From IMG/VR virus record IMGVR_UViG_3300034073_004140, positions 1-29,011 of that record: a DNA stretch of 29,011 nt; one strand, 5' to 3'. This stretch comes from a virus. Below the pieces are notes generated by a model that worked only from the letters and a program-made list of their open reading frames with translations, had not been told where the DNA came from and did no database searches. This document shows positions 12,605 through 29,011 of this stretch, piece by piece; position 1 is the first letter of the stretch; each line of letters opens with the position of its first letter. Position numbers and translations under genes: made by a program.

Positions 12605-13201
12605 TCATACCGATGCCGCTGAATTTACTTCAGTTTCATCTGAAATTGAACCATTACTTACAGCCGTCAATGAATGATACTGGAATGTAACTGTAAATTC
12701 AGAAATTGTATCAGATGAATCATAAGATAAATCAATAGCGCCAATATCCGTAGGAAAACATTCAAATAATTGATATGATCTGGAAACTGTATTATCTTGT
12801 TTTAAATGATCAACTCTTAAATCAACCATATAATCAAAACCAGATGATCCTGTTGGTCTAATTGCTTCATTATCATAGTTATTTAATTTGATGTAGCTTA
12901 CCCATTGATTGAATAATCCTCTAAGTGTATGAGCATCGTCAGAAATAAATGTTGCTGTCCAGTCTGCAAACGTTCTATCTCCAGGAACTTTAATTCTTCT
13001 ACCACCACGATAAGGAACTTCAATAACACCTAATGTGAATGCTGGTATCGCTGCTGATTTACATAGATATTTTGCTCTATTGGCCGCTGATATAATATTT
13101 ACACCAACACTTGAAGGCCATAAAAAAGTAATTTCAAATAGATTTGGTCTAGCACCAATTCCTAACTGTTCTTTTAAATTTGAAATCGTCGATAGTGCCA
13201 T
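12605..13201 (-). CDS. Second tail tube protein paralogue (gp19-like), 198 aa
   Basis: It is clearly paralogous to the preceding gp19. Shared blocks are LGIGARPNLFEI vs LGAGSRPNLFLV, RGGRRIKVPGDRTFADWT vs VGGRRLKMGGDRQFAEWT, and CFPTDIGAIDLSYDSSDTIS vs CWPSDISSIDLSFDTTDTVE, followed by EFTVTFQY vs EFTVTWSY. It differs in an N-terminal insertion (VGVNIISAANRAKYLCKS) and a longer Ser-rich C-terminus. T4 uses gp19 for the tube and the gp19-like gp54 as tube initiator, so this copy may be an alternative tube subunit, initiator or cap. Which of these is unknown. The start has AAAAGGAAAA upstream, 15 bases behind the gp19 stop. Confidence 0.85.
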   Translation of the reverse strand: MALSTISNLKEQLGIGARPNLFEITFLWPSSVGVNIISAANRAKYLCKSAAIPAFTLGVIEVPYRGGRRIKVPGDRTFADWTATFISDDAHTLRGLFNQWVSYIKLNNYDNEAIRPTGSSGFDYMVDLRVDHLKQDNTVSRSYQLFECFPTDIGAIDLSYDSSDTISEFTVTFQYHSLTAVSNGSISDETEVNSAASV

Positions 13202-13216
13202 TTTATTTTCCTTTTA

Positions 13217-13774
13217 TTATAAATTTATATTAGCTTCATCGCCTACGAGATAATAATCGTAAGACCAAGTAACTGTAAATTCTTCGACGGTATCTGTTGT
13301 ATCAAAAGACAGATCAATAGATGATATATCGCTGGGCCAACAATTAATTAATTTATACTCAGCATTTGGCCCAACAGAATTACCATCGGCATCTAATTGA
13401 AATATTTCAACGGTGCCTGAAACGAGAGTTCCTGTTCCAACTGTTCTATTGCCCACAGAAGGTAAATTGTAATTAGTTTTGGATATTGTTGATTGCCATT
13501 CCTCAAATCTTGATCGAATGTAAAAATTTTCGTCATTGAGTACCGTTGTTGTCCACTCAGCAAACTGTCTATCACCACCCATTTTTAATCTTCTACCACC
13601 TACCGTTGCAACTTCAATTAATCCAACGGTTGCTGATGGTAGAGATGCTGAACGGCAAACATATTCAAATCCAGTAAAAGTGAACGCTGCTGGTGGATTA
13701 ACTTTGACAAGAAACAGGTTCGGACGTGAACCTGCTCCTAATGCCTCCCTAAACGCTTGAATTGTAAATGCCAT
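13217..13774 (-). CDS. 19: Tail tube protein (T4 gp19 homologue), 185 aa
   Basis: This is the major subunit of the inner tail tube, stacked as hexameric rings inside the sheath. The N-terminal FREALGAGSRPNLFLVKV, the central GGRRLKMGGDRQFAEWTTT and the C-terminal CWPSDISSIDLSFDTTDTVE then EFTVTWSYDYY are the T4-type tube signatures. The length (185) is near T4 gp19 (163). It lies 27 bases after the sheath gene with a strong AAAGGAGA ribosome binding site. I assign it as gp19 rather than the next copy because it follows gp18 directly and is the shorter, more canonical of the two. Confidence 0.92.
   Translation of the reverse strand: MAFTIQAFREALGAGSRPNLFLVKVNPPAAFTFTGFEYVCRSASLPSATVGLIEVATVGGRRLKMGGDRQFAEWTTTVLNDENFYIRSRFEEWQSTISKTNYNLPSVGNRTVGTGTLVSGTVEIFQLDADGNSVGPNAEYKLINCWPSDISSIDLSFDTTDTVEEFTVTWSYDYYLVGDEANINL
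13222..13229 (-). promoter_or_regulatory. Possible late promoter box TATAAATT
   Basis: The minus strand reads TATAAATT, one mismatch from the T4 late box. It sits at the very end of the gp19 gene, 20 bases ahead of the second tube gene. It overlaps coding sequence, so it may be chance in AT-rich DNA. If real it would let the two tube proteins be expressed at different levels. Confidence 0.25.
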
Positions 13775-19395: not shown

Positions 19396-20139
19396 TTATC
19401 CAATCATATCAGATACAGGTAATGAATATGAAGATATCATCTCAGCTTCTAATGCTGTTATTTCATCTGTTGCTTCATCCCAAATTTTTTGACCGTTGAA
19501 TGTCAGACCACCCGGCATTTGGAGACCTTCAAACTTTTTTAAATTTTCGCCCCACTGTTTTTTAATTTGTGCTGTTGCATATCGTTGAAGCCATCTGTCA
19601 CCCCATACATCTGAGTATGTATCAGGATCCACTTTCTGGTATGCTTCAATAATAATATATTCGCCAGTCACAACTTTTGCTGACCAATCCATATCGATAT
19701 AAAGTCTGTTTACATGGCGATTATATCTGAGACTTTGGCGCCCAACAAAAAGTTCTTCAGCAAGCGCAACATTCTGAAGTGCCATGTAGTATGGTGCGAA
19801 AGGTCCATAATTGAATGCAAACAGATCGTTCAGTGCGATTTGATATCGAATGTTGAACAGATTGTTTGAAGAATAAGAGTCACCAATATCAAATATATTA
19901 ATGATACCAATGACTGCTTCTGGAATGGTTATGTATTTGTTTGTCTTGTCTTCAGCAGTGACTGGATGTGCTAAATAAACTTTCTGTGTACCATCAAAAT
20001 GATAATCGTGATAATACGCTAATGCTTCGTCAATTCTATCTTCAACTTGTTCATCCGCTACATTAATTTCAAGTACAGGTTTCCCTAACTTACGTAAGCA
20101 ATATTCTTTAAATTCATCTCTACTGGTAGGTTTAGCCAT
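19396..20139 (-). CDS. 13: Neck protein (T4 gp13 homologue), 247 aa
   Basis: This is a head-completion protein that seals the packaged head and accepts the tail. The N-terminus (SRDEFKEYCLRKLGKPVLEI, then NVADEQVEDRIDEALAYYHD and YHFDGTQKVY) follows the gp13 pattern of T4 (LKDVILRRLGAP...YHFDGLNKG). LYIDMDWSAKVVTGEYIIIE and VWGDRWLQRYATAQIKKQWG are further conserved blocks. It is shorter than T4 gp13 (309 aa), as is usual in the marine relatives. A late promoter precedes it and the start has AAAGGAAA upstream, so it opens the structural operon. Confidence 0.9.
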   Translation of the reverse strand: MAKPTSRDEFKEYCLRKLGKPVLEINVADEQVEDRIDEALAYYHDYHFDGTQKVYLAHPVTAEDKTNKYITIPEAVIGIINIFDIGDSYSSNNLFNIRYQIALNDLFAFNYGPFAPYYMALQNVALAEELFVGRQSLRYNRHVNRLYIDMDWSAKVVTGEYIIIEAYQKVDPDTYSDVWGDRWLQRYATAQIKKQWGENLKKFEGLQMPGGLTFNGQKIWDEATDEITALEAEMISSYSLPVSDMIG

Positions 20140-20175: not shown

Positions 20176-20388
20176 TTAACAGATTAGTGCTTTGCCATCA
20201 ATCAATAGTAAATTGCCTTTGCATGCCAGATTCCATTTTTTTACACCATGCTCGTAAGTACATTCGTCATACACGGGCACGTTGATTTCTAAACTTTTAG
20301 CTAAGACTTCTTCGCCATTTTCAAAAATTCTCCAGAAAAAATCAGTGTCGCCGTGCTGTGTATTAAATCGAATATGGTATTGCTTCAT
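20176..20388 (-). CDS. Small protein of unknown function, 70 aa
   Basis: No function recognised. The protein begins MKQYHIRFNTQHGDTDFFWR and contains VPVYDECTYEHGVKKWNLAC. It is soluble-looking, with no signal or membrane segment, three Cys residues and a beta-rich pattern. Its ATG overlaps the stop of the APS-kinase-like gene by four bases (ATGA), so the two are probably translated together, as last gene of the accessory cassette. I have the impression that similar short proteins occur in marine T4-like phages, but I cannot verify this. Confidence 0.8.
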   Translation of the reverse strand: MKQYHIRFNTQHGDTDFFWRIFENGEEVLAKSLEINVPVYDECTYEHGVKKWNLACKGNLLLIDGKALIC

Positions 20389-21221
20389 TCAATTCCCATT
20401 TCTTTTCGAATTTTGGTTGCTGAAATAGCATGTATCGTATCATCGAAAACTTCTTGTTCAATCTTGTAGCCGACATCTCTACCGTATGTGATGTTTACAA
20501 TGTTTGGAACAATCAAAATTTCATACTGACCTTGATAGAGTGGATCTAAGTCTCTTCGAATATAGTTTTTAACTTCTTCAATTGCAAATGGATTACTTCC
20601 ATTCCAACCCTGACAATCACGAATCATGATACATACTTGACCAGTTTTTGCTAACGCTCTTTCAAATAACGCACGATGACCTTTGTGCCATGGTTGCCAA
20701 CGACCTAACATCTGCACAGTTTCTTTGCGCCAATCAAAAGTTGGTCTTCTTTTACGACTTAAAATTGCTTCACCTACATACTGCACCCACTTTTCAGCAT
20801 TCTTTTCGTTGATTCTAAAATCATAGATTTCTGGTGGCACAAATGCTTTGTTCGTATCTTCATAACGACCAGCATCAATCGTATCCATCCAGATTGTCCA
20901 GTCTGCTTTAAAGTTGTGACGCATTTCAGCAAGTGGTGCTACAAAATCACAAATGACATATTCGCCAGTGCATCGCATTGCAAATTCTGCCATCCTCAAC
21001 GACTGCCGAATGCGACCTTCTTTTGAAAAGTCCCAATCATTGAATCGCTTTCGAATGTCATCAGCATTGAACCAATCAACTCGTGCGTTCATTCGAGGAT
21101 ATGGAGCGTCACTAAGTGTGTTTAAAGGACGCTCTCCGTGAATCTCAAGATAAGTCTTTAATCGTTCTGCAAAATATGTTTTACCTGAGCCAGGCAAACC
21201 CATAATCAATATTTTTTCCAT
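20385..21221 (-). CDS. APS-kinase-like / HxGH nucleotidyltransferase fusion, 278 aa
   Basis: Residues 1-150 resemble adenylylsulfate kinase (CysC): P-loop GLPGSGKT at 8-15, FNADDIRKRF at 51-60 in place of LDGDNVRHGL, DFSKEGRIRQ at 64-73, and DFVAP at 92-96 for the AFISP block. CysC makes PAPS, the universal sulfate donor, from APS and ATP. Residues about 170-278 form a nucleotidyltransferase domain with GRWQPWHKGH (HxGH at 179-182), NPFAIEEVKNYIRR, YGRDVG and ISATKIR (266-272). It is far shorter than ATP sulfurylase and closer in pattern to NadM/cytidylyltransferase types. The order (kinase then nucleotidyltransferase) is that of animal PAPS synthetase. Start: ATG at 21221 with GGAG nine bases upstream. 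A TTG at 21236 overlaps that site and is less likely. The overall reaction (PAPS or another activated compound) is not proven. Confidence 0.82.
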   Translation of the reverse strand: MEKILIMGLPGSGKTYFAERLKTYLEIHGERPLNTLSDAPYPRMNARVDWFNADDIRKRFNDWDFSKEGRIRQSLRMAEFAMRCTGEYVICDFVAPLAEMRHNFKADWTIWMDTIDAGRYEDTNKAFVPPEIYDFRINEKNAEKWVQYVGEAILSRKRRPTFDWRKETVQMLGRWQPWHKGHRALFERALAKTGQVCIMIRDCQGWNGSNPFAIEEVKNYIRRDLDPLYQGQYEILIVPNIVNITYGRDVGYKIEQEVFDDTIHAISATKIRKEMGIE

Positions 21222-21238
21222 TATATAAAACTCCAAAA

Positions 21239-21484
21239 TTATTGAGCGATTGCTGCACTTCCCTGAGTGATTGCGTTATGCAAATCAGAAATGTCTTCGC
21301 CAGATCCGGACACATCTGGATTTCCAACTACTAGTTTAAGATGCTCAACATTTCGATCAATGTTTCCACGAAGTTCGTCAGAAAGTGTTGCGCCTGCTGC
21401 AATCTTTGCTAAAGAATCTTCAATGACCCAAACGCTATCTCTTGCTGCTCGAATTGTATATAGAACTTCTGGTGTTGCTGGCAT
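21239..21484 (-). CDS. Small protein of unknown function, 81 aa
   Basis: Not recognised. The sequence starts MPATPEVLYTIRAARDSVWV and looks mostly helical (IRAARDSVWVIEDSLAKIA, then RGNIDRNVEHLKLVVG), ending with DLHNAITQGSAAIAQ. It has no Cys, signal peptide or membrane segment. It has the best ribosome binding site in the cassette (AGGAGG, five bases before the ATG, at 21490-21495), suggesting high expression. It lies between the sulfotransferase (one-base gap) and the APS-kinase-like gene. The weakly acidic helical make-up would suit a small structural or adaptor protein, but that is a guess. Confidence 0.8.
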   Translation of the reverse strand: MPATPEVLYTIRAARDSVWVIEDSLAKIAAGATLSDELRGNIDRNVEHLKLVVGNPDVSGSGEDISDLHNAITQGSAAIAQ

Positions 21485-21485
21485 A

Positions 21486-22436
21486 TTAGCCTCCTATGAG
21501 TTTAGTATCTTCGGTTTCTGTTGGTGCATCCGATTCGGATGTTGGTTCTTCAAAATTTGCGTCAATCTCTTGTAGATTTCTCCAAAATGCTGTATTTTCA
21601 CATCGCTTTAAAATTTCTTCTGAAAGAACTTCTTTAGGATCGACTGACGCTCTATTTATTGTACTACGAACTTCATGCATGTCTGCAAGCCCATAAACTT
21701 CAGCATCTTTTTCTTTATGTATGTTTTCAATTTTGCTAAAGTCATGTGCGAAATATTCTTCACCAAGAAATTCATAAATCTTTCGCATTGTATCATCTGG
21801 ATTCTCAAGCAAATCGTTATATTCAATGAAGTGAAGATTTTTCTGTCTACCTTCCATTAGTGCTTGTTGAATGCCAAAATAGCTTTGGCCAAGAATTCCA
21901 TTTGGACTAGCTAAGAACGTACATCGATTATCATCGTTTAAAGGCGTGTTTGTTTTGATAAGCATTTCATCAATGAAATTAATCTTACCTTCACCGCCGT
22001 ATGGATTTCTGCGTTGCATTGTAATAAATGATGTAAGAATTTCTTCAATGTCACGAACTGGGCATAAAACTTTTGGTTCAATTCCAAAATATCCAGGAAT
22101 GTAATGTAGTCGATTCACCCATGACCGATTCTTGTCAATGATGACAGGCTTATCTACGTCAGAATAATAATTATCCATGACACTAGAAATAATTTTTGCA
22201 GCTTGTGGTAACTTAGGAAAAGCCATAAAAAGTTCATCGTTTGAAAAAGAATTTTCAAGCGTGAGCATTGTAGGTACCACAGGAGAACTTGGACCAGAAT
22301 AGACTCTTGGATTTTGATTTAGAATCGATGATAGAAGTGTACTTCCTGATCTTGGAAGCCCAGACATAAAGTAGTATGTCTTCATTGACGCTCTCATCAT
22401 TTCTTCTCTTATAATTTCTTTAATCATTTCTTTCAT
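21486..22436 (-). CDS. PAPS-dependent sulfotransferase, 316 aa
   Basis: Sulfotransferases of this family move sulfate from PAPS to a hydroxyl or amine, typically on a glycan. Residues 25-35 (SGLPRSGSTLL) are the 5'-phosphosulfate-binding loop. CPVRDIEEILTSFI (125-138) gives the Arg128/Ser136 pair of the 3'-phosphate-binding motif. IEYNDLLENPDDTMRKIYEF (204-223, then LGEEY) is the typical downstream block. A 17-residue amphipathic N-terminal extension (MKEMIKEIIREEMMRAS) precedes the fold, and the C-terminus is an acidic tail (ESDAPTETED). There is no signal peptide, so it acts in the cytoplasm. The start at 22436 has GAGGTGAT upstream. Neighbours (three glycosyltransferases upstream, APS-kinase-like fusion downstream) suggest a sulfated-glycan pathway. 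The acceptor is unknown. Confidence 0.88.
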   Translation of the reverse strand: MKEMIKEIIREEMMRASMKTYYFMSGLPRSGSTLLSSILNQNPRVYSGPSSPVVPTMLTLENSFSNDELFMAFPKLPQAAKIISSVMDNYYSDVDKPVIIDKNRSWVNRLHYIPGYFGIEPKVLCPVRDIEEILTSFITMQRRNPYGGEGKINFIDEMLIKTNTPLNDDNRCTFLASPNGILGQSYFGIQQALMEGRQKNLHFIEYNDLLENPDDTMRKIYEFLGEEYFAHDFSKIENIHKEKDAEVYGLADMHEVRSTINRASVDPKEVLSEEILKRCENTAFWRNLQEIDANFEEPTSESDAPTETEDTKLIGG

Positions 22437-22447
22437 TGTTCATCACC

Positions 22448-23350
22448 TCATTGTTGATTGTTTACAGATTCTATAATTTTATTTATATCAAATAATTTAA
22501 CGTCATCTGTATAAGGATATTCAATTTCATTTCCGTTGAAGTCAAAGTCAAATAAGTAACTGCCAGGAAGTTTGAAGTTATATGGCACATCGGTACAAAT
22601 ATTATCATGCATATCATAACCAAAAACTTTAGGGCTTGTACCATTCCATAAAACAGTGGATTTCTTTCTAAGTGCTGCTGCTGCATGTTGCAACGAAGAG
22701 TCTATAAGAATTCTCTTTTTGCTATGTAAAAGAATACTAAAAAATTCCATTAGACTGAGTGCTTGTTGCTGCGTAGCAAAAACATGTTCAGCGCCTTCAA
22801 GTTTTGGTGAGTTCATCTTGGTAACTTGGTAAATATGATAGTCTTTTTTGTAATAGTCTATCAATTCTTGTGCTAATTCTGGCGGCATGTCTCTTGTCCA
22901 TGAATAAGGCTTAGCATCTGTTGTCATTGGACCGCCACTTGTATGTATAACCATGATAGGCTTTTTTCTCAACCAAAATTTTCTTGAAAGATCCCATTGA
23001 AGTTTATTAAACTTTACCTCTGGGCGCTCATTGTCGAATTTTAATTGATGCATTTCGCACCAATTTTCAATCAGTCGTTTCCGTTTATGTATATGATTTG
23101 TCGTATAGTATGGTTCGTGATGAAAAATCAGAGAATCTTTATCTTGAATGTATTCTTGGTAGAAATATTGTGTGCCACCTAACAGAAAAACTCTGTCAAC
23201 AAAAGAAAGATTAATAAAAATATCAGGATATGCACATACGACAATGAGTTTTCTGTCAGGAAAATTGTTTTTAATTGCTTTTGCAACAGCGGTTGCTGCT
23301 ACGTGTTTTCCAATACCGCCTTGAAGATGAAAAATACTATATTTCTTCAT
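22448..23350 (-). CDS. GT9-like (heptosyltransferase-type) glycosyltransferase, 300 aa
   Basis: The N-terminal HLQGGIGKHVAATAVAKAIK (residues 8-27) and the following beta-alpha pattern (DRKLIVVCAYPDIFINL, VDRVFLLGG) resemble the acceptor half of GT-B enzymes of the ADP-heptose/LPS heptosyltransferase family. The second half has VIHTSGGPMTTDAKPYSWTR, HVFATQQQALSLMEFFSILL and IDSSLQHAAAALRKKSTVLW, matching the donor-binding (IGTDSGxxHxAAA-like) region. No signal peptide. It is soluble and cytoplasmic. It follows two other glycosyltransferase genes with a one-base gap. The sugar and acceptor cannot be read from the sequence. It might decorate phage proteins or modify host surface glycan. Confidence 0.78.
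   Translation of the reverse strand: MKKYSIFHLQGGIGKHVAATAVAKAIKNNFPDRKLIVVCAYPDIFINLSFVDRVFLLGGTQYFYQEYIQDKDSLIFHHEPYYTTNHIHKRKRLIENWCEMHQLKFDNERPEVKFNKLQWDLSRKFWLRKKPIMVIHTSGGPMTTDAKPYSWTRDMPPELAQELIDYYKKDYHIYQVTKMNSPKLEGAEHVFATQQQALSLMEFFSILLHSKKRILIDSSLQHAAAALRKKSTVLWNGTSPKVFGYDMHDNICTDVPYNFKLPGSYLFDFDFNGNEIEYPYTDDVKLFDINKIIESVNNQQ
22480..22487 (-). promoter_or_regulatory. Possible late promoter TATAAATA before the sulfotransferase
   Basis: The minus strand reads TATAAATA exactly, 44 bases ahead of the sulfotransferase start. It lies inside the last codons of the GT9-like gene (Asp-Ile-Asn-Lys), so coding constraint could have produced it. If active it would place sulfotransferase, the 81-residue protein and the APS-kinase-like protein under late control separately from the glycosyltransferases. 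Confidence 0.45.
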
Positions 23351-23351
23351 A

Positions 23352-24080
23352 TTATAACCTTTCTTTTGTTGCTTTCACGATGTCCCACGTTCTCGCATTT
23401 TTGATATGATGAAAATGATATGCATTACTTGCGTCTAAAGCTAGTCTTTTAGTTATGTCATAATTTTTATGCTCTGAAACAAGCGTTTTTGATATCTCAC
23501 CTTTGATCCTATTCGTCTTGAATATGTATATATGTTCGTTGTTCTGCGTCAGATATTCATCACCGAACCAGATTTGATATAGTCTTGGTATCACCTTATA
23601 CGAAGTTCGCTTTATAAACATACATACACCAAATGCATATCCTTGACCACCTATAGGTTGAGTTTTATCATGTTTGAGTTTGAACAATTCATCTTCACCT
23701 TCATGAACACCAACTGTATAATTATCTGGTGTGTTTTTTAAATGAACGCCTACAACATCAATCTCTTTAAAATCTACTGCTGAGAAATCACGAAATACAC
23801 TCGATTCAACTTCTATGTCATCATTGATAATGGAAAGAACATTCGCTTTTGATCTATAGTAACCTTCATTCCACGAAGGATTTACGTAGTTGTTTTTACC
23901 ATAACAAATGATATGCAACTTAGATGAATTCAATTCGTCAACTCTTTTTGGTCGATTTGCTTTGTCATTGTCAATCAAAAAGATATTTCCAATATACTCG
24001 CATTCAATGTAGGTGTCAAGTGCGGATAGAAAATTTTTAGACTTCCACATTGTAGGAATTACAACGTCAATTGTATTCAT
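23352..24080 (-). CDS. GT-A-like glycosyltransferase, 242 aa
   Basis: The N-terminus MNTIDVVIPTMWKSKNFLSA is a family-2-like nucleotide-sugar-binding start. NPSWNEGYYRSKANVLSIIN (68-87 region) and the following NDDIEV give the DxD-equivalent Asp pair at residues 87-88. QPIGGQGYAFGVCMFIKRTS and IWFGDEYLTQN correspond to the acceptor/catalytic region. HFHHIKNARTWDIVKATKER closes the protein. It overlaps the first glycosyltransferase by four bases and is one base from the next. Donor sugar and acceptor unknown. It could instead be a glycosyltransferase-like protein with altered activity. Confidence 0.75.
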   Translation of the reverse strand: MNTIDVVIPTMWKSKNFLSALDTYIECEYIGNIFLIDNDKANRPKRVDELNSSKLHIICYGKNNYVNPSWNEGYYRSKANVLSIINDDIEVESSVFRDFSAVDFKEIDVVGVHLKNTPDNYTVGVHEGEDELFKLKHDKTQPIGGQGYAFGVCMFIKRTSYKVIPRLYQIWFGDEYLTQNNEHIYIFKTNRIKGEISKTLVSEHKNYDITKRLALDASNAYHFHHIKNARTWDIVKATKERL

Positions 24081-24739
24081 AAATCTTCTATGTTATAATT
24101 TTTCATTGTCGATTCAAAATTACCTTTATACATCTTATTGCCTAAATGGTAAACTGTATGATTCGGTTTGATCCAGATTTTGTAACCGAGTTCTCGAATC
24201 TTATTTGAAAGTGTAATATCTTCACCAACAAAAGCTCCGTTTATGTATGTAAATTCACATATGTTTTTTAATTTCTTACTACGAAAATCTAATTCAACAT
24301 TAGAGATCCATAAATCTTTAATGACTTTTTTGGAAAGTTTTAGAAAGCCTGTTCCTACACGAGATGCTGTCAGATAACCATCTTTCGGATCTCTCTTGAC
24401 CACACTGTTAAAATAAACGTTATACTGTATATTTGTATCACCTTTATTTACAACTGGTATAGCGATGACATCTTTTGGTGAAGAAAGAATTTCAATCAAT
24501 GCTTTCTCATCCCACATTTCATCATCGTCAATGAATACCATTGCATCATAATTTTCTTTGTATGCTAAATTAAAGAGTTCATTTCTGGCCATTGGAAGAA
24601 TACTTTCATTGGCCAGAAACACTACATTGATTGACAAATCGTGTTTCAATCCTAACTTAATAGATTCACATAAACTATGAACGAAATATGCGTCTACTTT
24701 TTGATCTAAACATGGTGTAGCAATTAATATACGTTTCAT
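24077..24739 (-). CDS. GT-A-like glycosyltransferase, 220 aa
   Basis: MKRILIATPCLDQKVDAYFV opens a GT-A Rossmann-like fold. LPMARNELFNLAYKENYDAM is followed by VFIDDDEMW with the metal-binding Asp cluster at residues 71-73. VGTGFLKLSKKVIKDL and GAFVGEDITLSNKIRELGYK, then IWIKPNHTVYHLG, form the typical C-terminal catalytic part with the conserved Glu-Asp. It is the first gene after the sigma70-type promoter at 24775-24803, with AAAGG as ribosome binding site. It is short for the family but complete. The product is expected in the cytoplasm. Substrate unknown. Confidence 0.78.
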   Translation of the reverse strand: MKRILIATPCLDQKVDAYFVHSLCESIKLGLKHDLSINVVFLANESILPMARNELFNLAYKENYDAMVFIDDDEMWDEKALIEILSSPKDVIAIPVVNKGDTNIQYNVYFNSVVKRDPKDGYLTASRVGTGFLKLSKKVIKDLWISNVELDFRSKKLKNICEFTYINGAFVGEDITLSNKIRELGYKIWIKPNHTVYHLGNKMYKGNFESTMKNYNIEDL

Positions 24740-24774: not shown

Positions 24775-24803
24775 ATTGTATATATTGTCACATAAAATGT
24801 CAA
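24775..24803 (-). promoter_or_regulatory. Near-consensus sigma70-type promoter for the glycosyl/sulfation cassette
   Basis: On the minus strand: TTGACA (24803-24798), a 17-base spacer, TACAAT (24780-24775). This is a perfect -35 and a five-of-six -10 with the optimal spacing, and it is not a T4 late box. The -35 overlaps the TGA stop of the giant fibre, and the predicted start lies some 30 bases ahead of the first glycosyltransferase. ACAT-TTT-ATGT within the spacer forms a small hairpin with the -35 region and could act as a weak terminator or operator. Confidence 0.7.
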
Positions 24804-27800
24804 GTAACTCTTTTCTCTAGTGCTTCAAGTCTACTCTTAAGTGCATCTATTTCATTCGACATCTCATTAATTGTATTGACAAGAACTGGTATCAAATGAT
24901 CATTTGTCATTTGAAGTTTTTCCGGCATCTCTTTACTTACGATGACAGGATTGTCACCTTCAGCCTCTAGAATGTTTTGTGCGCTGAAACCATATCGTTT
25001 TCTGGTATCCGTAATTTCACCAGTGTCTCGATTTTTAAATGAGAATTCAATTGGTGTAATCTTTCGAAGAAAATCTCTACCGTGTGGAACAGGTCCGAAG
25101 ATTGTTTTGTCACGAACATCTGAAACAGTAGTCCAACCAATTTGAATTTGAGCGCAAGTATGTGCATTATTGCCCATGATGATGCGATTTGATTCAGTTG
25201 TGATATTAGCTAGACCAATTGTTCCAACAGCAGCATTGCATCCAAAGAAAAGATTGTTGCTGCCAGTGGTGTTACAGTAACCAGCACATTGACCAGCAAA
25301 GATGTTATTATTGCCAGTGGTGTTAGCAGCACCAGCAGCATTACCAATGAAATTATTGTTAGAGCCAGTGGTGTTATTTAAACCAGCACTTTGACCAAAG
25401 AAATTATTACTACAGCCAGTGGTATTGCCATAACCAGCACTTGAACCAATGAAATTATTAAAACCGCCAGTGGTATTGTAGCGACCAGCACTTGCACCAA
25501 AGAAATTATTACTAGTGCCAGTGGTGTTGTTTAGACCAGCACTTGCACCAAAGAAATTATTACTAGTGCCAGTGGTGTTACTGCAACCAGCATTCACACC
25601 AATGAAATTATTGTAACTGCCAGTGGTGTTCTTGTAACCAGCACGATTACCAATGAAATTGTTATGTCCGCCAGTTGTGTTATAGTAACCAGCACGATTA
25701 CCAAAAAAATTATTTTGGCTGCCAGTGGTATTATAGTAGCCAGTTTGCCTACCAAAGAAATTATTATAATTGCCTGTGGTATTATAGAAACCTGCTAATG
25801 GACCAAAGAAATTGTTACAATTACCTGTTGTGTTACAGTAACCAGCACATGCACCAAAGAAATTATTAAAAAATCCAGTGGTATTATTGTTACCAGCCAC
25901 GTAACCCATAAAATTATTATAAGCGCCTGTGGTGGTATTGCGACCAGCACATAAACCAGCGAAGAAGTTGTAACAGGCATCGTTACAGTAACCAGCTGCT
26001 AAACCAATAAAAATATTACCAATGCCTGTGACGTTAAAGCGACCTGCATCTTTTCCAAAGAAAGTATTATTGCTACCAGTTGTATTTTTACAACCAGCAA
26101 GATTACCAATGAAAGTGTTATAACTGCCATTAGTATTACAGAGACCAGCACATTGACCAATGAAAGTATTGCCACTGCCAGTGGTATTGCCATAACCAGA
26201 TACAAGACCAAAGAAATTATTATGACATCCAGTGGTGTTGCTGGAACCAGCTTGATTACCAAAGAAATTATTACAACTGCCAGTGGTATTAGTTATGCCA
26301 GCAGCATTACCAAAGAAATTATTATGACAGCCACTGCTATTGCCGCGACCAGCATATCGACCAAAGAAATTATTAAAACAGCCAGTAGTATTGTAGCGAC
26401 CAGCACAACAACCAATGAAATTATTATAACTGCCAGTGGTATTGTAGCGACCAGCACAAAAACCAATAAAATTATTACTAGTGCCAGTGGTGTTAGAGAA
26501 ACCAGCACATTGACCAAAGAAATTATTATTACAGCCAGTGGTATTGGAGCGACCAGCACTTGGACCAAAGAAATTATTATTGCTGCCAGTGGTGTTACAG
26601 AAACCAGCCCATCTACCAAAGAAATTATTAAAACAGCCAGTGGTGTTATTGCGACCAGCACATAGACCAAAGAAATTATTATAGCTGCCTGTTGTGTTAA
26701 CCAAACCAGCACTATTACCAATGAAATTATTATTGCTACCCGTCGTGTTACAGTAGCCAGCCGACTCACCAAAGAAATTATTATGACTGCCTGTTGTGTT
26801 AAAGCGTCCGGTATAATAACCAAAGAAATTATTATTGCTGCCTGTTGTGTTCAAACAACCAGCACTTCCACCAAAGAAATTATTCTTCCAGCCTGTTGTG
26901 TTACATAAACCAGCACAACGACCAAAGAAATTATTATAGCTGCCTGCTGTGTTAAAGTAACCAGCACTTAGACCAAAGAAATTATTACAGCCGCCTGTTG
27001 TGTTACAGAAACCAGCACTTTGACCAAAGAAATTATTATTACAGCCAGTGGTGTTACTGTAACCAGCAGCGCAACCAAAGAAATTATTGTGATTGCCAAT
27101 TGTATTGGAAAAACCAGCACTTTGACCAAAAAAGTTATTCCAAGCACCACTGATATTACACATACCAGCACAAAGACCAGCAAAGAAGTTACAACCGCCA
27201 ATGATATTGTAGCGACCAGCATTTAAACCGATAAAAGTATTATGACAGCCTGTTGTATTACAGAAACCTGCACATCGATTAATAAAGGTATTATATTTGC
27301 CATTGGTATTAAAACGACCAGCATCACGACCAAGGAAAATATTATCATTACCATCGATATTAGCGTAACCAGCACATTGACCAGCAAAGAAGTTATAACT
27401 GCCAGTGATGTTACAGTAACCAGCAGCGCAACCAAAGAAATTATTATTACATCCAGTGGTATTATTAATACCAGCAAAATGACCAAAGAAATTATTAAAT
27501 CTAGCAGTGGTGGTAGAACGACCTGCTTGATTACCAATGAAAGTATTACCAAATCCAGTGGTATTAGCGTAACCAGCATAGTAACCAATGAAATTATTAG
27601 AACCACCAGTGGTGTTACAGTAACCAGCACATGTACCAGCAAAGAAGTTATGACAGCCAGTGGTATTACTGTAACCAGCAAGATAACCAAAGAAATTATT
27701 CATACTGCCAGTGGTGTTACTGTAACCAGCACATAAACCTGCGAAAAAGTTATGACTACCAGTGGTGTTACATAAACCAGCACATGCACCAATAAAAGTA

Positions 27801-29011
27801 TTATGACTGCCAGTGGTGTTAAAGCGACCAGCGCATAAACCTGCGAAAAAGTTATAGCTACCGTAGTTATTGGCTAAACCAGCACTGTTACCGAAGAAAT
27901 TATTGTGACTGCCAGCATTCAAATAACCAGCAAAATGACCAAAGCTATTATTATTACAACCAGTAATGCTAAGAAAACCAGCATAGCGACCAAGGTAATT
28001 ATTATGACTGCCAGTGGTATTGGAGCGACCAGCTTGATTACCAAAAAAGTTATTATAACAACCAGTGGTGTTAAGACGACCAGCAGCTAGACCAAAGAAA
28101 TTATTAAAACTGCCAGTGGTGTTATTGCAACCAGCACTTTGACCAAAGAAATTATTACCAGCGCCAGTGGTGTTACGAAAACCACTATTACATCCTAAAA
28201 AGTTATTAAAACTGCCAGTGGTGGTGGCAAAACCTGAAGAAAAACCTGCGAAGAAGTTATGACATCCAGTGGTGTTACAGAAACCAGCACATTGACCGAA
28301 GAAAATATTACCAGCGCCAGTGGTGTTATTGTAACCAGCATATTGACCAATGAAAATATTAAAACATCCTGTGGTGTTGTAGCGACCAGCACAGGAACCA
28401 GCAAAGAAGTTGTGACTACCAGTGCTATTGGCATAACCAGTATAACAACCAAAGAAATTATTATGAGATCCTGTGGTGTTATTGAGACCAGCAGCAAGAC
28501 CTAAAAAATTATTCCAACTACCTGTAGTGTTATTTCTACCTGAATTATTACCAATGTAATTATTATTACAGCCTGTAGTATTGTTACGACCTGTATATTT
28601 TCCAATAAAATTATTGTTAGATGCTGTTTCATTATATAATCCAGCACCTTTACCAAAGAAATTATTGTAAGAACCTGTGCTATTATACTTACCAGCTTCA
28701 TGACCAAAGAAATTGTTATAACATCCGCTACTATTACATCGTCCAGCATTTAAACCAAAAATATTATTAAAACATCCTGTAGTGTTAATACAACCAGCAT
28801 TTTGACCTAAGAAAATGTTCCAACTACCAGCTAAGTTGCATCGGCCAGCAGATTCACCTAAAAAGATATTACTGACGCCAGTGGTGTTACAAAAACCAGC
28901 TCGTGATCCTGCAAAAAAGTTGCTGCTTCCTCCACCAAAATTACATGACATGCCACTTATTATATTGCAATTACCTTTAGTTACAAATGCACTTGTAGTT
29001 TTTTCTGTATA
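24800..29011 (-). CDS. Giant repeat tail fibre with S74 self-cleaving chaperone (5' end beyond window)
   Basis: The frame is open to the right edge. The ATG at 28951 (MSCNFGGGSSNFFAG) is internal, because the 20 codons before it (YTEKTTSAFVTKGNCNIISG) are open and echo the left giant fibre (GSNNIVSCISG), and no ribosome binding site is evident. Counted from that ATG there are 1,383 residues. Residues 8 to about 1240 are roughly 70 units of 17 residues (NTTG-x-x-NNFFG-x-x-AG-x-x), with about 70 Cys. Residues 1256-1383 form a peptidase S74-type intramolecular chaperone: Ser1277-Asp1278 in VSDVRDK with the Lys five residues after the Ser, then ITPIEFSFKNRDTGEI, KRYGFSAQNILE, and a terminal coiled coil (MSNEIDALKSRLEALEKRV). 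The chaperone trimerises the fibre and is then cut off. Role: long host-recognition fibre. Confidence 0.9.
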   Translation of the reverse strand, partial: YTEKTTSAFVTKGNCNIISGMSCNFGGGSSNFFAGSRAGFCNTTGVSNIFLGESAGRCNLAGSWNIFLGQNAGCINTTGCFNNIFGLNAGRCNSSGCYNNFFGHEAGKYNSTGSYNNFFGKGAGLYNETASNNNFIGKYTGRNNTTGCNNNYIGNNSGRNNTTGSWNNFLGLAAGLNNTTGSHNNFFGCYTGYANSTGSHNFFAGSCAGRYNTTGCFNIFIGQYAGYNNTTGAGNIFFGQCAGFCNTTGCHNFFAGFSSGFATTTGSFNNFLGCNSGFRNTTGAGNNFFGQSAGCNNTTGSFNNFFGLAAGRLNTTGCYNNFFGNQAGRSNTTGSHNNYLGRYAGFLSITGCNNNSFGHFAGYLNAGSHNNFFGNSAGLANNYGSYNFFAGLCAGRFNTTGSHNTFIGACAGLCNTTGSHNFFAGLCAGYSNTTGSMNNFFGYLAGYSNTTGCHNFFAGTCAGYCNTTGGSNNFIGYYAGYANTTGFGNTFIGNQAGRSTTTARFNNFFGHFAGINNTTGCNNNFFGCAAGYCNITGSYNFFAGQCAGYANIDGNDNIFLGRDAGRFNTNGKYNTFINRCAGFCNTTGCHNTFIGLNAGRYNIIGGCNFFAGLCAGMCNISGAWNNFFGQSAGFSNTIGNHNNFFGCAAGYSNTTGCNNNFFGQSAGFCNTTGGCNNFFGLSAGYFNTAGSYNNFFGRCAGLCNTTGWKNNFFGGSAGCLNTTGSNNNFFGYYTGRFNTTGSHNNFFGESAGYCNTTGSNNNFIGNSAGLVNTTGSYNNFFGLCAGRNNTTGCFNNFFGRWAGFCNTTGSNNNFFGPSAGRSNTTGCNNNFFGQCAGFSNTTGTSNNFIGFCAGRYNTTGSYNNFIGCCAGRYNTTGCFNNFFGRYAGRGNSSGCHNNFFGNAAGITNTTGSCNNFFGNQAGSSNTTGCHNNFFGLVSGYGNTTGSGNTFIGQCAGLCNTNGSYNTFIGNLAGCKNTTGSNNTFFGKDAGRFNVTGIGNIFIGLAAGYCNDACYNFFAGLCAGRNTTTGAYNNFMGYVAGNNNTTGFFNNFFGACAGYCNTTGNCNNFFGPLAGFYNTTGNYNNFFGRQTGYYNTTGSQNNFFGNRAGYYNTTGGHNNFIGNRAGYKNTTGSYNNFIGVNAGCSNTTGTSNNFFGASAGLNNTTGTSNNFFGASAGRYNTTGGFNNFIGSSAGYGNTTGCSNNFFGQSAGLNNTTGSNNNFIGNAAGAANTTGNNNIFAGQCAGYCNTTGSNNLFFGCNAAVGTIGLANITTESNRIIMGNNAHTCAQIQIGWTTVSDVRDKTIFGPVPHGRDFLRKITPIEFSFKNRDTGEITDTRKRYGFSAQNILEAEGDNPVIVSKEMPEKLQMTNDHLIPVLVNTINEMSNEIDALKSRLEALEKRVT
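25230..28940 (-). repeat. Array of about 70 coding 51-bp repeats (17-residue NTTG units)
   Basis: These are the same 51-base period and the same plus-strand phrases (ccagtggtgttac, ccaaagaaattatt) as at 1-2297. Most units follow NTTG-[SC]-x-NNFFG-x-x-AG-x-x, with occasional FFAG, TFIG and NIFLG variants. A few units are 15-16 residues long (for example around LNAGSHNNFFG and CNDACYNFFAG). Near-identity of many units at the DNA level suggests continuing homogenisation. Confidence 0.92.
28026..28280 (-). repeat. Long direct repeat, right copy (partner at 1-255)
   Basis: It matches 1-255 with about ten mismatches and no indel, in the same orientation and reading frame register. The match fades after 28280 (position 255 of the left copy), where both genes continue with differently ordered units. 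It falls within the giant fibre near its N-terminal side. Confidence 0.9.

Follow-up and report, generated by a model that had tools for sequence, protein, structure and literature searches.

A conserved cassette of T4-like phages pairs a sulfotransferase with probable glycosyltransferases and a candidate minimal PAPS synthase

What might a T4-like phage do with a sulfotransferase gene that is packed among probable glycosyltransferase genes and followed by a gene fusion resembling adenosine 5'-phosphosulfate (APS) kinase? This question is raised by a 29,011-base virus record (IMG/VR IMGVR_UViG_3300034073_004140; "the window" denotes this whole stretch of DNA), whose genes for the sulfotransferase, the kinase fusion and the portal recur with 100% identity in a 113,653-base IMG/VR contig. 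A passage in PMC10580990 terms the role of phage sulfotransferases, such as those of the cyanophages S-SKS1 and S-SRM01, unclear, and a section of PMC12713726 lists the APS-kinase-like gene cysC of aquatic viruses as not validated and files it under assimilatory sulfate reduction. The cassette in the window comes from a T4-like phage and consists of seven intact minus-strand open reading frames (ORFs) that encode, in order, three likely glycosyltransferases (GT1, GT2 and GT3), the sulfotransferase (ST), a small protein (p81), the two-domain fusion protein (KN) and a second small protein (p70); it lies between a giant repeat fibre gene and the neck operon. We lean, if only slightly, towards a reading in which KN makes 3'-phosphoadenosine 5'-phosphosulfate (PAPS) by means of an APS-kinase-like first domain (K) and an ATP-sulfurylase-like second domain (N), and in which ST uses this donor to sulfate a glycan built by GT1 to GT3 on the fibre or on the host.

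The most surprising and more novel part of the cassette is KN, on account of its second domain and the link of this domain to the aprMBA genes. A first-pass annotation of this DNA had taken KN for an APS-kinase-like fusion and a plausible source of the sulfate donor. The KN ORF spans positions 20385-21236 (minus strand), with a likelier ATG start at 21221 that yields 278 residues. Its K domain (20747..21221) scores 28.7 bits against the Pfam family APS_kinase (cut-off 21.1), and in searches with an AlphaFold2 model of KN (predicted local distance difference test, pLDDT, 89.5) APS kinases occupy the top 30 structural matches, headed by 7yq0 (Z 18.7, root-mean-square deviation [rmsd] 2.1 over 140 residues); the first other family is gluconate kinase (Z 15.4). 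Searched as a profile, 14 K domains retrieve solved APS kinases at 3e-15, followed by adenylate kinase 9 (2e-8, P-loop stretch only) and seryl-tRNA(Sec) kinase (8e-5). K reaches 17.9 bits against the NCBIfam equivalog TIGR00455, whose cut-off is 138.7 bits, and is therefore treated as a divergent relative and not filed as an APS kinase orthologue. Its APS-binding region reads NDWDF..GR..Q, to be compared with N.DLGFS..R..N, which we take to be the classical pattern; the DLGF pattern is present in two soil alphaproteobacterial KN members. Family and fold strongly suggest that K makes PAPS by phosphorylating the 3'-OH of APS. K is thus APS-kinase-like in the manner of CysC, whereas KN differs from the viral cysC genes in being a fusion of K to N that often lies beside a sulfotransferase gene.

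N (20388..20744) is an HxGH nucleotidyltransferase of approximately 120 residues. Its model (pLDDT 92.1) matches phosphopantetheine adenylyltransferase (PPAT; Z 10.9, rmsd 3.0, 104 residues) and nicotinamide mononucleotide (NMN) adenylyltransferase (Z 10.5, rmsd 2.6, 107 residues) equally well, and it has the fold and the HxGH motif of the latter. With NadM, the archaeal-type NMN adenylyltransferase, N shares the GRxQPxHxGH sequence, the fold and an IS[GA]T-type motif, but it is shorter and carries an invariant or near-invariant YGR[DG]VGY stretch. With ATP sulfurylase (Sat, PF01747) it shares HxxH, GRD and IS[AG]T-type motifs in the same order, yet Sat comprises about 350 residues and has no significant profile similarity to N; KN has no Pfam match to PF01747, and ATP sulfurylase chains are not among the best 50 structural matches listed for N. 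We therefore propose that N acts like an ATP sulfurylase, not that it belongs to that family. The closest architectural parallel is with the animal PAPS synthases PAPSS1/2, proteins of about 620 residues with the same domain order as KN (APS kinase, then nucleotidyltransferase); PAPSS1 is among the structural matches of KN, whose product would likewise be PAPS. KN is much shorter and its second domain stands outside the ATP sulfurylase family, so that it is not a bifunctional PAPS synthase in the strict sense of an APS kinase joined to a true PF01747 domain. In the proposed pathway, N would convert ATP and sulfate to APS, K would phosphorylate this APS to PAPS, ST would transfer the sulfate from PAPS, as members of its family do, and the sugar that receives it would be built by GT1 to GT3.

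The genomic context of N in SAR11 bacteria bears on its chemistry. The aprMBA genes serve the step from sulfite to APS, and the N gene adjoins aprM-aprB-aprA in SAR11. In locus L191, where NCBIfam models verify the apr genes (aprB 188.5 bits, cut-off 135.65; aprA 997.5 bits, cut-off 641.75), the order is K, N, a CADD-family gene, a membrane protein gene, aprB and aprA. In a draw of 197 SAR11-family genomes, 97 matched aprB (96 over the cut-off), and N, K plus N, or KN lies near aprB in at least 41 of these 97; this is a lower bound, with 22 of the 97 aprB loci outside the comparison. Among the places listed, 25 aprB genomes carry N, K plus N, or KN at most about 4 kb from aprB and on its strand, and 16 of 50 further aprB loci have N without K in the same stretch. 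Homologues of K or N occur in 87 of the 97 aprB genomes and in 35 of the 100 others (Fisher 7e-16), an association open to effects of kinship and of genome completeness, as the draw includes incomplete genomes. The known ATP sulfurylase was found in only 9 of the 197 genomes; most SAR11 are said to lack it in a passage of PMC10356861, and an excerpt of PMC12636525 describes sulfate-reduction pathways as incomplete in all Pelagibacteraceae examined. The position of N beside AprBA fits the step APS + pyrophosphate -> ATP + sulfate, and, of the candidates for the ATP sulfurylase that SAR11 seems to lack beside aprMBA, N would be the best. The 16 N-only genes just mentioned keep all tested residues apart from the Asp of GRD, in whose place 16/16 have Gly. 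Near aprMBA, such N-only genes (L382-L420) read YGRGVGY, while fused KN proteins mostly read YGRDVGY.

The same data allow a different assignment, in which K acts as an APS kinase on APS supplied by the host, N is some other adenylyltransferase (for instance one serving NAD or FAD supply) and ST still uses PAPS. NMN adenylyltransferase and PPAT are the families closest to N, an FAD role near aprBA is conceivable given that AprA is a flavoprotein, and KN of Casjensviridae adjoins a gene annotated NADAR. Against this stand the curated NMN adenylyltransferase models, whose cut-offs N misses by a wide margin (28.4 versus 127, 30 versus 397 and 26.5 versus 181.2 bits), and the fusion to an APS kinase, the linkage to aprBA and the scarcity of known sulfurylases, all of which point to APS. 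We regard this assignment as unlikely. The broader proposal, that N represents a new ATP sulfurylase family of about 120 residues, which alone completes AprBA sulfite oxidation in SAR11, with K makes PAPS, and as fused KN is a minimal PAPS synthase carried by phages to sulfate glycans where hosts cannot supply PAPS, seems to us evenly balanced between right and wrong. A further candidate role, that of KN as the kinase of SAR11 sulfate assimilation, was rejected: 30 of 34 KN-bearing genomes (32 SAR11, 2 SAR116) are without both CysD and ATP sulfurylase (CysD in 1, ATP sulfurylase in 3).

The enzyme that would consume the PAPS is encoded directly upstream of p81 (ST, 21486..22436). By family ST is a PAPS-dependent sulfotransferase, with its activity predicted from sequence: it matches PF13469 (Sulfotransfer_3) at 8e-15 and 56.1 bits (cut-off 27) and also scores over the cut-off of PF00685. 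The intact PAPS-loop motifs reported in the first-pass annotation are indeed present, since the 5' phosphosulfate loop GLPR[SA]GST is invariant in 10/10 aligned ST sequences, as are R128 and S136, which by their presumed spacing form the 3' phosphate site. Among solved structures, protein-tyrosine sulfotransferases come closest to the ST profile (2e-6), and the fibre repeats contain, by eye, many Tyr residues; ST might then sulfate tyrosine on a virion protein, with the glycosyltransferases acting separately. The structural match covers mainly the PAPS loop, however, and ST stays beside glycosyltransferase genes, so that we hold tyrosine sulfation to be quite improbable. The sulfotransferases of S-SKS1 and S-SRM01 are 35-40% identical to ST; unlike the window, the records of these two cyanophages contain no KN that we could find.

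That the cassette encodes three glycosyltransferases, as first annotated, is likely and no more, because the profile matches of GT1 and GT3 stay below cut-offs. The firmest case is GT2 (23352..24080), a family-2 glycosyltransferase: the window protein has no Pfam match of its own, while its orthologue in L055 scores 26.9 bits against Glycos_transf_2 (PF00535; cut-off 23.3) and carries a fused Methyltransf_24 domain, also over cut-off; a search of PDB profiles returned a glycosyltransferase at E 0.02. An extra C-terminal domain is present in the GT2 orthologues of L003, L012, L045, L047, L055 and L330 and absent from that of the window. GT1 (24077..24739) is probably of the GT-A type, with a DDD motif recognized by eye, a match to phrog_1574 (function unknown) and one to HpsN (5e-4); its orthologues match Glycos_transf_2 below the cut-off only. 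GT3 (22448..23350) is probably GT9-like, with 14.3 bits against Glyco_transf_9 (PF01075; cut-off 22), which does not place it in GT9, and 4/5 of its orthologues match this family below the cut-off. For GT1, GT3 and p81, searches of PDB profiles were uninformative. The conserved p81 (21239..21484) is accompanied by ST in 15/15 viral KN loci that hold it and also occurs in cassettes without KN; it thus tracks the glycosyltransferase and sulfotransferase part, for which it might be a carrier or scaffold, although this is a guess. The other small protein, p70 (20176..20388), overlaps KN and is kept beside it in loci with and without ST.

The arrangement of these genes agrees with the seven tightly packed, co-directional genes first described. 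From GT1 to p70 the successive junctions are a 4-base overlap, gaps of 1, 11, 1 and 17 bases and another 4-base overlap; the 17-base p81-KN junction shrinks to 2 bases if a TTG start of KN is used. The reported insertion between fibre and neck operon likewise holds, with 60 bases separating GT1 from the end of the fibre gene upstream and 36 bases separating the cassette from the neck operon downstream. The latter opens with a head-tail adaptor gene (19396..20139, minus strand; phrog_211) and a T4 neck protein gene, and the T4-type block beyond the cassette comprises neck, sheath, tube, terminase and portal genes. Two neighbouring tail-tube paralogues (phrog_45) lie at window positions 12605-13201 and 13217-13774.

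The first-pass annotation had suggested a search of relatives for this gene set and its adjacency to fibres, and in divergent phage contigs we found the order fibre-GT1-GT2-GT3-ST-p81-KN-neck to be kept. Leaving aside the contig of the window itself, 27 distinct contigs hold both GT3 and ST, and in all but L103 (26 of them) GT3 lies directly upstream of ST in the same orientation; this count overstates the number of lineages because several contigs are near-identical. GT1, GT2 and p81 are usually present too, at protein identities of 38 to 84%, and KN follows in 19/27, including L005, where the contig end cuts it. In 13 of 18 loci checked upstream of GT1, some of which are the same contig or near-identical, GT1 is preceded by a fibre ORF of the S74 or NTTG-repeat type (L003, L011, L012, L014, L016, L018, L019, L034, L036, L038, L043, L047 and L055; in L016 and L018 after a gap of about 0.8 kb). 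A different large ORF without a family match precedes GT1 in L004 (1017 residues) and L005, a GT11 gene and a mannose-phosphate-isomerase-like gene do so in L007 and L330 (one contig), and L057 leaves no room for a gene before GT1. In L007 (3517-5152) the cassette is extended upstream of GT1 by the GT11 gene and the gene resembling mannose-phosphate-isomerase/cytidylyltransferase. Conservation and context hence support a sulfated-glycan cassette with its own donor enzyme.

For the acceptor, the neighbouring fibre or another virion protein would be most likely, with the host envelope next. The fibre of the window (24800..28951, minus strand) is a repeat protein of 1383 residues with 50 NTTG repeats and a Peptidase_S74 C-terminus (PF13884; 28.6 bits, cut-off 22), and is thus a possible acceptor. 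Its Asn sequons were rejected as proof of this role: NTT belongs to the repeat, and D/E-X-N-X-S/T sites number 0. Whereas the position of the cassette favours the fibre, GT3, which resembles heptosyltransferases below cut-off, and the polysaccharide genes around cellular KN in SAR11-rich loci favour an envelope glycan, so that the same chemistry might alter lipopolysaccharide or capsule, hiding infected cells or excluding rival phages, rather than decorate the virion. That many relatives keep the cassette in this place, between fibre and neck operon, speaks for a late role linked to the virion, and we consider the host-surface variant a credible but less than even prospect.

How closely KN and ST belong together was assessed with profile hidden Markov models built for this work, on ORFs from a simple caller that drops small genes; in the phage records L098 and L100 this caller overlooked a KN that tblastn detects. 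ST is present in 33/89 nonredundant viral KN loci, upstream and on the same strand in 33/33, and within 3 kb in 29 of these (18.6 expected, p 6e-5). No ST and no KN appeared in portal-based control loci (80 loci, 510 kb), which are short and give a weak background. Among cellular KN neighbours, Sulfotransfer_3 is the commonest family in soil alphaproteobacteria (18/89 proteins, many from related Bradyrhizobium and two per locus), and Sulfotransfer_3 and Sulfotransfer_1 account for 5/132 and 6/132 proteins in SAR11-rich loci. Across SAR11, Sulfotransfer_3 occurs in 47 of 73 genomes with at least two K/N matches and in 4 of 26 with one (p 2e-5; 1e-3 under a stricter ST cut-off), the number of matches being a proxy for K plus N versus N alone; completeness and kinship may contribute to this association. 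Of the 76 (of 197) SAR11 genomes with Sulfotransfer_3, 56 have K/N homologues, 52 of them without Sat; Sat is present in 4.

Cyanobacteria make PAPS themselves. Among 38 long viral records, all fragments, psbA/psbD occur in three (two of which look like close relatives), each with the cassette and each without KN, and KN may thus serve phages whose hosts are unable to supply PAPS, while cyanophage-type cassettes would do without it. As a natural control for the need of KN this contrast is no more than suggestive.

Several findings weigh against the interpretation given here. For N, a profile search finds NMN adenylyltransferase at 1e-10, with an alignment that covers the first half only; hhalign gives a probability of 9% against ten SAR11 Sat sequences; and 34 of the 50 fetched aprB loci show no N (7 of the 34 with less than 3.5 kb upstream). 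For PAPS supply, 20 of the 76 SAR11 genomes with Sulfotransfer_3 have neither K/N nor Sat, although genomes may be incomplete; Sulfotransfer_3 is no commoner in SAR11 genomes with fused KN (5/23 versus 76/197 overall); and L003 lacks both KN and psbA. No ST was found near KN of the Casjensviridae records L099 and L100 (7565-8741), in which KN overlaps the preceding gene (the NADAR gene in L099). Finally, KN and ST occur apart: 13/32 KN records lack Sulfotransfer_3 and 6/25 Sulfotransfer_3 records lack KN among the 38 records (both in 19); since these records were selected by searching for KN and ST, their overlap is no test of co-occurrence. The cassette is therefore modular. Independent occurrence of its genes was named at the outset as grounds for abandoning the idea of a single unit, and this idea has been dropped, while the sulfated-glycan cassette beside the fibre retains the backing of conservation and context.

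KN extends well beyond such cassettes. One scan confirmed 571 viral relatives and a second at least 590; 350 were found in bacterial or archaeal genome contigs, with SAR11 and other alphaproteobacteria dominating among the 80 kept. In the SAR11-family draw, 122 of 197 genomes have a match under 1e-20, of which 23 are fused KN (under 1e-100); the remainder carry N alone or K and N as two genes. The two-gene form was seen in 19/20 SAR11 regions examined (six chosen because the genes lie apart; the twentieth was missed by the ORF caller), so that phage KN matches a two-gene cellular module. Another SAR11 setting of K plus N, among glycine-betaine-type and DddP-like genes, has no plain APS link. 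In a pooled Pfam scan of the surroundings of KN loci that lack ST, the 25 of 134 families listed include glycosyltransferases and methyltransferases but no sulfotransferase, and two L054 proteins with a P-loop-like start have no Pfam match. No ST was found in the 24 loci (11 nonredundant) of a SAR11-like viral group, and loci L284-L307, with SAR11-like KN and no detected sulfotransferase, have uvsX-/uvsY-like genes nearby in several cases. A gene for a DUF2061 membrane protein lies directly downstream of KN at L090:8821-9024 and in seven other viral loci. At L145:7018-7989 and in other SAR11-rich loci, the two nearest KN neighbours on either side include a pyruvate-kinase-barrel gene (PF00224 in 8/132 scanned neighbour proteins).

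A literature search limited to open-licence papers found no description of this system. A single testable proposal would address three questions, namely the purpose of phage sulfotransferases, termed unclear in the relevant passage of PMC10580990, the viral APS-kinase-like genes, not validated according to the section of PMC12713726 cited above, and the completion of the AprBA route in SAR11. If it is true, biochemistry would gain a minimal PAPS synthase, and sulfated glycans of phage or host would enter the biology of aquatic phages, with relatives of KN sitting where abundant ocean bacteria seem to be without a known sulfate enzyme.

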